A stretch of DNA of 64,000 bases from Sporosarcina sp. (GTDB taxonomy: Bacteria; Bacillota; Bacilli; Bacillales_A; Planococcaceae): assembly GCA_029257435.1 (NCBI GenBank), contig JARIBI010000058.1, forward strand, positions 1 through 64,000. The letters run 5' to 3'. This document shows, piece after piece, positions 3,367-61,399 of the stretch. Made by a program: the position numbers and the translations under genes. A model generated the notes under the pieces. The model was not told where the DNA came from. It made no database searches and saw nothing but the letters and a program-made list of their open reading frames with translations. Numbering within the stretch: position 1 is the first letter of the stretch; every line of letters begins with the position of its first letter.

Positions 3367-5247
3367 GTGAGTTCTGTTGCTCAAAAAAGAGGATTCGGCG
3401 CAGCCCTTTGGGATTGGATGACAACTGTCGACCATAAGAAGATCGGAATTCTTTACCTCATTGGCGGCGGTTTCTTCTTCGTCGTCGGCGGTATTGAAGC
3501 GATGATCATTCGTCTCCAGCTGTTAAAGCCGAACAATGACCTAGTTAGTGCAGGTCTTTTCAATGATTTAATCACGATGCATGGTACTACGATGATTTTC
3601 TTGGCCGCCATGCCGATACTATTTGGATTTATGAACTATATTATGCCACTCCAAATCGGAGCGCGTGACGTTGCGTTCCCATTCATTAACTCATTAGGTT
3701 TCTGGATGTTCTTCTTTGGAGGATTGTTCCTGAATATATCATGGCTTATTGGGCAAGTTCCTGATGCTGGATGGACTTCTTATGCATCGCTGTCACTTGC
3801 TTCTACAGGACACGGAATTGACTTTTATGCGATAGGTCTTCAAATCGCTGGTGGGGGTACGCTGATGGCCGGGATTAACTTCCTTGTTACCATCATTAAT
3901 ATGCGTGCACCAGGTATGACATATATGAGGATGCCATTGTTTACTTGGACGACATTTGTCGCTTCAGCAATGATCCTTTTCGCTTTCCCACCACTTACTG
4001 TCGGTTTGTTCTTCTTAACATTCGACCGTATGTTTGGCGGTAACTTCTTTGATCATCAGATGGGTGGAAACACAATTATCTGGGAGCATATTTTCTGGAT
4101 CTTCGGACACCCTGAAGTATATATCTTGATTTTGCCGGCATTCGGTATTTTCTCTGAGATTTTCTCAATCTTCTCTCGCAAGCGCTTGTTTGGATATCCA
4201 GCAATGGTATTTGCGACAGTGTTGATTGGGTTCTTAGGATTCATGGTTTGGGCTCACCACATGTTTACAGTAGGTCTTGGGCCAACTGCAAACGCAATCT
4301 TCGCAGTTGCCACGATGGCGATTGCTGTCCCAACTGGTGTTAAAATCTTCAACTGGCTGCTTACAATTTGGGGCGGAAGCATTGTCCTTACAACTCCAAT
4401 GTTGTATGCACTTGGATTCATCCCGTCATTCGTAATGGGTGGTGTTACAGGGGTTATGCAGGGTGCTGCACCTCTTGACTATCAATTACACGATAGTTAT
4501 TTCATTGTTGCTCACTTCCACTACGTAATCGTTGGCGGAGTTGTACTTGCGATCTTAGCAGGTGTCCACCTTTACTGGCCGAAAATGTTCGGAACAATGC
4601 TCAGTGAAACACTTGGTAAAATTACGTTCGTCTTCTTCTTTGTCGGATTCCACTGTACATTCCTGATCCAGCATTGGCTTGGATTCTGGGGAATGCCGCG
4701 TCGTGTTTGGACATATATGGACGGACAAGGCTGGAATACTGCAAACTTAATCAGTTCAATCGGTGCGCTTCTAATGGCGATCGGTGTGATTGTATTGGTC
4801 ATCAATATCATTATGACAACTGTTAAGAATGTACGTATTGGAAATGATCCATGGGGCGACGGACGTACGCTTGAATGGGCGATTCCATCACCACCGCCAT
4901 TCTATAACTTCACTCAGACTCCACTTGTCCGCGGACTTGATACAGTTTGGATTGAAAAGCAGGAAGGCAACGCAACAGGTCTTACATTTGCTGAGCCTGT
5001 AACGGATATCCACATGCCGAATGGTTCAATCATTCCATTCTTCATGACATTTGGTTTGTTCATCGCAGGATTTGGTGCAATGTTCCACCAAGAAACATCT
5101 TGGGGACTTCCAGTGCTCATCTTGGGTCTTGCTTGGACGTTTGTCTCAATGGCAATGCGCTCAGTTAAAGATGACCTAGGCTTCCATGTAACAAAAGAAG
5201 AAATTCAGCGTGATATTAACAATGCTCATAAAGGGGGTCAAAACTGA
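3367..5247 (+). CDS. ctaD: Cytochrome caa3 oxidase subunit I
   Basis: 626 aa; HPEVYILILPAFG, WAHHMFTVG, HDSYFIVAHFHYV motifs; GTG start after AGGAGG. Confidence 0.97.
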   Translation: MSSVAQKRGFGAALWDWMTTVDHKKIGILYLIGGGFFFVVGGIEAMIIRLQLLKPNNDLVSAGLFNDLITMHGTTMIFLAAMPILFGFMNYIMPLQIGARDVAFPFINSLGFWMFFFGGLFLNISWLIGQVPDAGWTSYASLSLASTGHGIDFYAIGLQIAGGGTLMAGINFLVTIINMRAPGMTYMRMPLFTWTTFVASAMILFAFPPLTVGLFFLTFDRMFGGNFFDHQMGGNTIIWEHIFWIFGHPEVYILILPAFGIFSEIFSIFSRKRLFGYPAMVFATVLIGFLGFMVWAHHMFTVGLGPTANAIFAVATMAIAVPTGVKIFNWLLTIWGGSIVLTTPMLYALGFIPSFVMGGVTGVMQGAAPLDYQLHDSYFIVAHFHYVIVGGVVLAILAGVHLYWPKMFGTMLSETLGKITFVFFFVGFHCTFLIQHWLGFWGMPRRVWTYMDGQGWNTANLISSIGALLMAIGVIVLVINIIMTTVKNVRIGNDPWGDGRTLEWAIPSPPPFYNFTQTPLVRGLDTVWIEKQEGNATGLTFAEPVTDIHMPNGSIIPFFMTFGLFIAGFGAMFHQETSWGLPVLILGLAWTFVSMAMRSVKDDLGFHVTKEEIQRDINNAHKGGQN

Positions 5248-10636: not shown

Positions 10637-11377
10637 CTATAAAGAGTGCGGAACAATCCACGTCCCTTCTTCAGCTGCAGCAATTCCTCTAACACAGAGA
10701 GGGATTGCTGTTTTTTTTGCATAAAGAGCTGCGCGTTTTTGTATGACAGGTCTCTCACAGTCGAGTAAAGGAATGAATTCATCGATCGTCAGTGAATCAA
10801 ATTTTTTTGCTTCTCTATGAATATGCGGATCAGCAGACATTACACCTGGCACATCTTTGAAAAATTCAACATGGGAGGCATTTAAGCTGCTGCCTAGCGC
10901 AATGGCTGTCAAATCACTGCCGCCACGACCCAGTGTCATGTAATCGCCGGCTGTATTCATTCCTTGAAATCCCGGTATTATTAAACACTTGTGATCTTGT
11001 AAGGTCCGTTCGATATGGCTTGTCTCGATTGTCTCGATTATTGCGTTACCAAAGGAACCAATCGTTCTGATACCTGAATTCATACTGTGCATCACCCTGT
11101 TAGGGATCCCTGCTTCCTCCAATTCAGCACTAAGTACTGCAGAAGCAATCAGTTCTCCGCATGAAGCAGCCAGGTCCCATGAAGCTGAAGAGAACTTCAA
11201 TGACGGTGTTATCGAGAGCAGCCGATCTGTGGAATACGGACTTTCCTGACGTCCGATTGCAGAAACGACAACAATAACTTCATCATGTGATTTCAAACCT
11301 TCTTGAATCCGGTGAATACATAAACGGCGCATTTCACGATTTTTCATCGCTGCGCCACCAAACTTTTGGATGATCAT
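10637..11377 (-). CDS. Short aspartate kinase-like protein (kinase domain only, no ACT domains)
   Basis: MIIQKFGGAAM, CGELIAS, LGRGGSDLTAIALG, KDVPGVMSADP motifs; resembles the DapG kinase domain but stops before any ACT domain. Start at 11377 preferred (GGGAG before ATG); ORF track extends to 11404. Confidence 0.8.
   Translation of the reverse strand: MIIQKFGGAAMKNREMRRLCIHRIQEGLKSHDEVIVVVSAIGRQESPYSTDRLLSITPSLKFSSASWDLAASCGELIASAVLSAELEEAGIPNRVMHSMNSGIRTIGSFGNAIIETIETSHIERTLQDHKCLIIPGFQGMNTAGDYMTLGRGGSDLTAIALGSSLNASHVEFFKDVPGVMSADPHIHREAKKFDSLTIDEFIPLLDCERPVIQKRAALYAKKTAIPLCVRGIAAAEEGTWIVPHSL
10678..10718 (+). terminator. Rho-independent terminator for ylbC, located inside the opposing aspartokinase CDS
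   Basis: CAGCAATTCCTCT-AACACAG-AGAGGGATTGCTG-T8. Confidence 0.8.
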
Positions 11378-11489
11378 CTCGTCTCCCAACTTTCTTCGTG
11401 ACATTTACCCGATGCTTTTCATACTCTGTGGTAGGTTCACTCTTACTATATTCCCTCGCAAGAAAAACGTTCGGGAAGGAGATGCTGAT

Positions 11490-58596: not shown

Positions 58597-58600
<4 letters not shown>

Positions 58601-59229
58601 TGACTAAACAAGAAATCGCTAAAATTCTATTGCACGTAGGTGCTGTAACACTTAGTCCGGATGAGCCTTTCACATGGGCATCAGGCATTCAATCACCCAT
58701 CTATTGTGATAACCGACTTATCATGTCAGACCCAGGCGGCAGAAGAAGGATTGCTGAAGGAATGGCTGCTTCCATTAAAGCGAATTATCCGGAAACAACA
58801 GTCATTGCAGGGACTGCTACAGCCGGTATCCCGCATGCGGCATGGATTGCAGATATTTTAGGGTTGCCGATGGTCTATGTTCGTTCAAAAGCAAAAGGTC
58901 ACGGACGGAGTAAGCAGATCGAAGGGAAAGTAAAGCCGGAAGACCGGGCTGTCATCGTGGAAGATTTAATTTCTACTGGCGGGAGCAGCTTGACTGCTGC
59001 GGATGCATTAACAGAAGCTGGCGTTCAAGTGGAAGGTGTTGTCTCCATCTTTACATATGGATTGGAAAGTGCTGATCAAGCATTTGAAAAAGCTGGATTA
59101 TCTTATACCAGCCTTACAGATTTCAATGCCCTCGCAGAAGTGGCAACTCGTTCCGGAGCAATCCGCGAAGGATCTGTTGCCCCTCTCCTTGACTGGCACC
59201 AAAAATTAAAATCTGGCACTTTGCAATAA
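58597..59229 (+). CDS. pyrE: Orotate phosphoribosyltransferase
   Basis: FTWASGIQSPIYCDNRL, AVIVEDLISTGGSSLTAADAL. Confidence 0.97.
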
Positions 59230-59233
59230 TTGA

Positions 59234-59269
59234 CAGAAGCTGGCGTTTTACGCTGAGCTTCTTTTTTTA
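59234..59269 (+). terminator. Terminator after pyrE (pyr operon end)
   Basis: AGAAGCTGGCG-TTTTA-CGCTGAGCTTCTTTTTTT. Confidence 0.75.
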
Positions 59270-59376: not shown

Positions 59377-59527
59377 GTTTATGAGCGTTTTTGTCGGTTT
59401 TATGATCCTATTTTGGAGTTTATGAGCGCATTATGTGTTTTATGATCACAATTTGTGATTTATGAGCTTTTTCGACAATATATGATCACTTTCTCGTATT
59501 TATGAGCAAATTCCGTAATTTATGATC
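59377..59527. repeat. Periodic intergenic repeat: eight TATGAGC/TATGATC heptamers alternating at 20-bp spacing
   Basis: Heptamers start at 59380, 59401, 59421, 59441, 59461, 59481, 59501, 59521; GAGC and GATC strictly alternate. Confidence 0.95.
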
Positions 59528-59545
59528 ACACTTACCAAATAACGT

Positions 59546-59580
59546 AAAAAACCCAGCAAGGCGGGGAGCCGTGCTGGGTC
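59546..59580 (-). terminator. Terminator of rqcH (minus strand)
   Basis: Minus strand ACCCAGCACGGCTCCCCGCCTTGCTGGGTTTTTT. Confidence 0.85.
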
Positions 59581-59583
59581 AGG

Positions 59584-61275
59584 TTATGCTTTTAATTGCC
59601 GTACGACATCTACATCGGGTGTGACGAAAATCGTTTTTTGTTCAAAGTAGATGACAAACCCAGGTTTTGACCCATTGGGCTTTTTCACGTGACGAACTTC
59701 TGTGAAATCGACTGGAACGGATGCTGATCCCCGTGCCTTACTGAAATAGGCAGCGAGCGTGGCAGCTTCTTGAATCGTTTGTTCGCTCGGCTCCTCATCG
59801 TGAATGACTACGTGTGATCCCGGGATATCTTTGGTATGCAGCCAAATATGGTTGCGGGCAGCGAGCTTTGAAGTCAGCCAATCATTTTGTCGGTTATTTT
59901 TCCCGACTGAGATTTTTATACCATCTGACGACTGATAGGATTCGGGCATCGGTTTCTTAGGCTTCACTTTTTTCTTGCCTTTTCGAGCTTTCATGAGGCC
60001 CAGTTCTGCAAGTTCGTCCCGGATTTCATCGATATCATCAGTCGATGCCTGCATGACTTGCTGTTTCACCATTTCAAAATACTCGATGTCTTCGCGGGCT
60101 TTTTCCAATTGACTTGCAAGTTGAATTAAGGCATTCTTCGCTTTTGTATACTTTGAAAAATATCGCTGAGCATTGTCAATCACGGATTTGCGTGGATCCA
60201 GCTGAATGGTCACAGTTGTTCCTTGCTCATAATAGTTATCAACAACGGCTTCTTTTTGCCCTTTTTCAATCGCATAACTGTTTGCTGTAAGAAGTTCTCC
60301 GTAAAGTTGGAACGTATCCAAGCGTCCTGCATCATTGCGTTCCTTTTCCAGCTTTTGCACTTTCAACTTCAGTTTTGCAATTTCGTTATCCAGCCAGCGC
60401 TCTAGATCGGCCGCCTGCGCTTTCACACGTTCTCGAACTGCACGGGCAAAGTAGACTTTGTCGAGCAATTCTCCGAGAGTCGGATAAACTGTCGCAGTCC
60501 CTTCTGTAAACCTCAGCTCAGCTGCAGAGAATAATAACTTCCCCTCCTTTTCCACAGTGTTCGGATGAAAAGGACCTTCTGAAAAGATCTGAACGAATGA
60601 CTGATAGGTCTCATATGCAGACGACCCGCCGGAATTGGTTAAACGGTATAGCAGTTCCTCCGCATGGACCGGTGAAAACCCCGATAGCTCTTGAACAACA
60701 GCTTTAGGAGTATCAAACGATGGAAGTAATTGTTCAAACTCTTCTTGAGTAAGTGTAAATGGATTGCGTTTATCTTGCGGCGGTGCTGGAATGTAAGGTT
60801 GCCCTGGCATAATGGTACGATAGCTATTTACACTTGGCGGCAAGTGTTTCATGCTGTCGATAATCATGTCTCGTTCCGGATCAATCAGTAAGAAGTTACT
60901 GTGACGTCCCATGATTTCAAATATGATTGCCCGTTCCATATCATCGCCAATTTCGTTTTTTGACCGAATCTTAAACTTTAAGATTCGGTCTGTTCCCATT
61001 TGTTCAACCGCTGTAATTGTGCCGCCTTCCAAGTGTTTTCGAAGTGTCATACAAAACATTGGAGGTTCTTTTGGGTTTTGAATTGTTTCTTCTGTAAATT
61101 GCACGCGCGCATAGGAGGGGTGAACCGAAAAAAGCAACTTTCGGTTTTGACCGCCTGCACGGATAATGAATACGGTTTCTTGTGCGTTTGGTTGGTGAAT
61201 CTTTGTGATTCTCCCATTTTCAATCGTTTGTAGTTCGCGTTTCATCGCGGTTGAGAACAACCCGTCAAATGCCAT
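59584..61275 (-). CDS. rqcH: NFACT family protein, Rqc2 homolog RqcH (YloA)
   Basis: MAFDGLFSTAMKRELQ, NDWLTSKLAARNHIWLHTKDIPGSHVVI (NFACT-R); start 61275 preferred over 61314. Confidence 0.93.
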   Translation of the reverse strand: MAFDGLFSTAMKRELQTIENGRITKIHQPNAQETVFIIRAGGQNRKLLFSVHPSYARVQFTEETIQNPKEPPMFCMTLRKHLEGGTITAVEQMGTDRILKFKIRSKNEIGDDMERAIIFEIMGRHSNFLLIDPERDMIIDSMKHLPPSVNSYRTIMPGQPYIPAPPQDKRNPFTLTQEEFEQLLPSFDTPKAVVQELSGFSPVHAEELLYRLTNSGGSSAYETYQSFVQIFSEGPFHPNTVEKEGKLLFSAAELRFTEGTATVYPTLGELLDKVYFARAVRERVKAQAADLERWLDNEIAKLKLKVQKLEKERNDAGRLDTFQLYGELLTANSYAIEKGQKEAVVDNYYEQGTTVTIQLDPRKSVIDNAQRYFSKYTKAKNALIQLASQLEKAREDIEYFEMVKQQVMQASTDDIDEIRDELAELGLMKARKGKKKVKPKKPMPESYQSSDGIKISVGKNNRQNDWLTSKLAARNHIWLHTKDIPGSHVVIHDEEPSEQTIQEAATLAAYFSKARGSASVPVDFTEVRHVKKPNGSKPGFVIYFEQKTIFVTPDVDVVRQLKA

Positions 61276-61399
61276 GTGAATTCCTCTTTCTTTTCGTTTC
61301 CTCCATTTTAGCACTACGCGCCAAACATATGGTATAATACGAATACAAACTTCGGATCGAACTGGATTAGGGCTGATTTGAATGGAGAGACTACATTAG

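Follow-up and report, generated by a model that had tools for sequence, protein, structure and literature searches.

Why should eight near-identical heptamers recur every 20 bp between two convergently transcribed genes? We examined this question for an intergenic array located between pyrE and rqcH in a Sporosarcina sp. contig (JARIBI010000058.1, positions 1 to 64,000; this 64,000-nucleotide stretch is hereafter called the window). The initial annotation, made from the sequence alone, had described eight TATGA[G/T]C heptamers, and this observation proved correct. Eight TTTATGA[G/T]C units occupy positions 59378–59527 on the forward strand, with cores TATGAGC at 59380–59386, TATGATC at 59401–59407, TATGAGC at 59421–59427, TATGATC at 59441–59447, TATGAGC at 59461–59467, TATGATC at 59481–59487, TATGAGC at 59501–59507, and TATGATC at 59521–59527; the first step is 21 bp and the other six are 20 bp, and GAGC and GATC alternate strictly. 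Tandem Repeats Finder also reported the stretch (59377–59467, period 40, score 108), and the pattern TTATGAKC-N12..15-TATGAKC was found 6 times in the window, as compared to 0.00 times in 100 dinucleotide shuffles.

The flanking genes were confirmed by Pfam searches and include pyrE (58597–59229, forward strand; PF00156), encoding an orotate phosphoribosyltransferase 98% identical to PyrE of S. aquimarina MER 20 and of two other named Sporosarcina isolates and giving a single match in every congeneric genome searched, with close matches ranked as the same genus by the genome search, and rqcH (59584–61314, reverse strand; PF05833, E 9.5e-142), encoding an NFACT protein whose true start is probably the internal ATG of MAFDGLF. 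The two terminators between which the initial annotation had placed the array are plausible. A terminator-like hairpin and T-run follow pyrE at 59234–59269 (forward strand; stem at about 59241–59255) and are conserved in the cross-species alignment, while the rqcH terminator-like hairpin (59546–59580, read on the reverse strand) contains the stem CCCAGC...GCTGGG at about 59551–59577; this stem was missed by the hairpin scan because of its long loop, but is visible by eye and aligned across six genomes. Two statements of the initial annotation required refinement. Strict alternation is common but not a rule, as neighbors alternate in 222 of 302 steps and one species has 14 GAGC in a row at this very site. 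The proposal that all motifs lie near one DNA face is only approximate, as at 10.5 bp per turn a 20-bp step drifts about 34 degrees per unit, whereas the 21-bp arrays of other species would be truly in phase.

We next asked whether the array is unique to this locus, the outcome that the initial annotation had named as refuting its novelty claim, and found that it is not. The host genome contains 148 + 195 matches (343 in total) of TATGAKC-N12..15-TATGAKC and none of the reversed control pattern. Among 37 genomes of the genus, counts ranged from 0 to about 660; in 200 genomes of the family Planococcaceae, triples were found in 44 genomes representing 9 of 19 genera, while outside the family the counts were at chance level. 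The reversed control, CKAGTAT...CKAGTAT, gave dozens of hits (68–97) in three genomes of one genus (G132, G202, and G241; genus g37), apparently representing another genuine core family rather than noise.

The pyrE–rqcH array is also present, in the same orientation, in S. aquimarina, Sporosarcina sp. ZBG7A, BI001-red, D27, S. gallistercoris, NCCP-2716, and S. koreensis. In five genomes, representing five species, the eight units align one to one; no unit was skipped, since every step is 20 or 21 bp, so the comparison is not circular. The six fixed core positions vary in 0 of 48 columns, the degenerate G/T position varies in 2 of 8, and the remaining positions vary in 42 of 96 (Fisher p 8e-10 for 0/48 against 42/96), while fourfold sites of pyrE differ by 44% between pairs; we take this as purifying selection on the core. 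The array-wide motif, based on 280 units, is [GA][GA]TTTATGA[GT]C[AG]N[AT]TT (in shorter form, TTTATGA[GT]C[AG]N[AT]T); T at the degenerate position requires A two bases later (153 to 1), while G allows A or G.

Species poor in TATGAKC carry other intergenic arrays of the same geometry. A blind detector (any 6-mer, at least four copies, periods of 10–60 bp), applied to the intergenic DNA of sampled genome stretches, identified ten arrays at 20–21 bp, one at 42 bp, and one labelled 10 in unselected Sporosarcina stretches, and eight of eight arrays at 20–21 bp in other Planococcaceae genera, although some of the latter stretches had been chosen because they hold TATGAKC arrays; it found none in 20 other families of the class and nearly none after shuffling. 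The cores include TGCAAGCAAA, CATKACAGTT, TTATGCGT, GGTAGTYCAGTT, TTAATAGACAA, ACCTGGA, GGCGTTCA, and CGGATAT. Two of these were counted genome-wide in 24 species; TGCAAGCAAA pairs number 63, 57, 21, and 13 in four species and 0–1 elsewhere, and CATKACAGTT pairs number 127 in one species, 15 in another, and 0–4 elsewhere. Downstream of pyrE itself, one genome (G066) and an uncultured Sporosarcina carry 21-bp arrays with other cores. The geometry is thus constant while the core changes. One genome can also run more than one core; a 20-kb stretch of genome G184 (L146) carries two array families with different cores, GGCGTTCA and TATGATC (4170–4277 and 11287–11481), and in a stretch of genome G036 (L136) a second intergenic family, CCCAAAG at 21 bp (221–332), lies about 60 bp from a TTTATGCGT array. 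Outside Planococcaceae, CTGATATAT repeats at 20–21 bp lie just after a terminator-like hairpin in Bacillus pinisoli (stretch L060, 10279–10368), and intergenic arrays of about 42 and 40.5 bp, twice the 20–21 bp period, were seen in the Lactobacillales Ruoffia (L085, 8468–8812) and Atopostipes (L090, 7583–8070), possibly representing the same kind of architecture. A different repeat type was observed in Salipaludibacillus keqinensis (L057, 5867–6032), where 51-bp intergenic repeats contain a short inverted repeat (CCGATAA...TTATCGG).

Among TATGAKC arrays with gene context, only two fell inside predicted ORFs, both probably spurious, and a 20-bp period is out of frame, which argues against a coding repeat. 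In tandem gene pairs, 22 arrays are co-directional with transcription and 28 are opposite (p 0.48); 19 arrays lie between convergent and 6 between divergent genes, where gaps of at least 150 bp as a whole number 58 and 60, respectively. While ORFs were called mechanically and single cases may be wrong, this pattern argues against a sense RNA signal and against promoter control. An autoregulated partner gene was rejected, as no recurring DNA-binding gene was found among the array neighbors.

Array orientation was also compared with the direction of replication, using complete lists of arrays, dnaA, and GC skew. In the closed genome G005, which carries TGCAAGCAAA arrays, 22 of 25 listed clusters lie on the leading strand (p 1.6e-4), including arrays between convergent genes. 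In the closed genome G081, which carries TATGAKC arrays, 15 of 18 lie on the lagging strand (p 0.0075) and 17 of 18 lie in the origin-proximal half. A third closed genome, G008, showed only a trend (30 to 17; p 0.08), three draft genomes were mixed, and the sign of the polarity differs between cores. One universal replication polarity was therefore rejected, and we report this pattern as a tendency; in G005 it partly coincides with the sense of the upstream gene (16 of 21 arrays), so that transcription is not fully excluded for that core.

The ends of the arrays are special. In Sporosarcina TATGAKC arrays, internal steps are 20 bp in 205 of 210 cases and 21 bp in 4 of 210, but first steps are 21 bp in 14 of 33 arrays (p 9e-11), and the first core is GAGC in 27 of 33; the 21-bp first step of the array in the window fits this pattern, although its orthologues have 20 bp. 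In G005, every TGCAAGCAAA array sampled starts with a conserved stretch of about 20 bp, roughly GGGTAAAAGGTCCCGACT, followed by a first step of mostly 20 bp and then by 21-bp steps. Such capped, polar elements are not what plain slippage would produce; terminal inverted repeats of a transposon were not seen, and only the 5′ end has a cap in G005. Noncoding DNA just upstream of the arrays, in array orientation, is G-rich in every gene context of the main sample, and downstream flanks are mostly neutral or C-rich; across the flanks of all sampled genomes, this holds in most gene contexts.

With moderate confidence, slightly more likely than not, we interpret the array as a multi-site DNA-protein binding platform. 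In this view, an as yet unidentified sequence-specific DNA-binding protein would occupy each TTTATGA(GCR/TCA) core, and neighboring molecules would interact along the DNA because sites recur every 20–21 bp, i.e., two helical turns; the host genome would carry dozens of such platforms in intergenic DNA, and relatives would run the same architecture with a different core. Our analyses show a dispersed family, purifying selection on the core, a fixed 20–21 bp spacing across unrelated cores, the absence of a link between TATGAKC arrays and transcription direction, special array ends, and replichore polarity in two closed genomes; by contrast, we only infer that a protein binds, that binding is cooperative and starts at the capped end, and that the purpose is chromosome organization, segregation, or insulation rather than gene control, and this chromosome-scale role remains doubtful. 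Against this interpretation, no protein candidate was found, the replichore polarity is weak in G008, mixed in three draft genomes, and of different sign between cores, copy numbers differ widely among species, arrays outside the pyrE locus vary in unit number, and at 20 bp per step the sites drift around the helix unless the DNA is slightly overwound. The interpretation offered by the initial annotation was thus supported in part; two of its three suggestions, a dispersed repeat family and a binding array for a DNA-binding protein, are supported, the third, a chromosome-organization site, is only weakly supported by the replichore polarity in two closed genomes, and it anticipated neither the different cores at the same spacing nor the special array ends. 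A more far-reaching possibility, unlikely on present evidence, is a family-wide chromosomal system in Planococcaceae, with dozens of capped, polar arrays per genome, sites fixed at two helical turns, a protein whose specificity turns over between species together with its sites, and orientation with respect to the replication origin; this would represent a fast-evolving bacterial system of oriented architectural sites.

The strongest alternative, although also unlikely, is a selfish or neutral satellite without host function, in which arrays spread and expand by slippage and by insertion at replication forks and the core is whatever the spreading machinery recognizes. Copy numbers ranging from 0 to about 700 between congeners, local homogenization with 40-bp dimer expansion, and capped, element-like ends are consistent with this alternative, and replichore polarity is what insertion into single-stranded lagging DNA would give. 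However, a selfish element has no reason to keep its core at one fixed locus over the divergence of five species while the spacers drift, no recurring mobile gene was found at the arrays examined, and the same spacing recurs with unrelated cores. An RNA-level element, in which transcribed cores bind a protein or form a structure in 3′ untranslated RNA, is less likely. Arrays do lie close to gene 3′ ends (52 flanking 3′ ends against 31 5′ ends), arrays in G005 are mostly in the sense of the upstream gene, and the reverse-strand fold is slightly better than that of shuffled sequences (z −1.9); however, TATGAKC arrays are indifferent to gene direction, the sense-strand fold is unremarkable (z −0.7), no Rfam match was found to E 1, and the array in the window sits between two terminators. 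Regulatory sites of LytTR-type or other direct-repeat transcription factors are less likely still; LytTR regulators use 9-bp direct repeats about 21 bp apart, a spacing that fits the arrays, and some alternative cores (CATKACAGTT, GGTAGTYCAGTTTTC) resemble LytTR sites by eye, but arrays have 4–30 sites rather than two, most cores do not resemble such sites, and arrays avoid divergent promoter regions. Chromosomal copies of plasmid or phage iteron or partition arrays, acting as decoys or remnants, are very unlikely despite the similar architecture, as no plasmid match beyond chance (hits to Klebsiella plasmids are 27-bp chance matches) and no phage match were found in the collections searched, viral-contig hits are coding or simple repeats, and dozens of chromosomal copies of such arrays are not known to have a precedent. 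The array is also inconsistent with a CRISPR array, as a 7-bp core is separated by 13–14 bp spacers that are orthologous and drift between species, and the immediate neighbors are the pyrimidine genes, rqcH, and guanylate kinase, with no cas genes next to it.

Literature searches identified two described classes of similar dispersed repeats, but no paper on these arrays in the open-access literature searched, although a description in a subscription journal may exist. If a protein reads these arrays, it would represent an unrecognized chromosome-binding system whose specificity changes between close species, making co-evolution of a DNA-binding protein with many target sites directly testable; this would also suggest a possible function for dispersed repeats such as the staphylococcal STAR elements, whose role is still open.

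Among known systems, plasmid iterons (17–22 bp direct repeats bound by Rep proteins) and parC-type partition arrays share tandem direct repeats of about 20 bp bound by one protein, but represent a single locus on a plasmid, while the arrays described here occupy dozens of chromosomal loci. LytTR-type operators share direct repeats of about 9 bp two helical turns apart, but consist of two sites at promoters rather than long intergenic arrays. The TAACTGA repeats of Beggiatoaceae and cyanobacteria (PMC4679880) are likewise intergenic heptamer direct repeats, with 169 sets in one genome; however, they involve one heptamer, located mostly just upstream of start codons in that genome and taken as a post-transcriptional signal, while the orientation of the arrays studied here ignores genes, promoter regions are avoided, and no TAACTGA pair within 30 bp was found in the window. 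The nearest known kind are the STAR elements of Staphylococcus (PMC3532100), which are also dispersed intergenic direct repeats with a short conserved motif, spacers that differ between loci but agree within a locus, copy numbers differing strongly between species, suspected purifying selection, and no assigned function. The STAR motif is, however, 14 bp long and GC-rich (T(G/A/T)TGTTG(G/T)GGCCC(C/A)), with at least 40 bp between copies and loci that are not shared between species, and its consensus, TDTGTTGKGGCCCM, had 0 matches in the window even with 2 mismatches; the arrays described here instead combine a 7–10 bp AT-rich core that is replaced between species, 13–14 bp between heptamers, a 20–21 bp period, a locus shared across species, and special ends.
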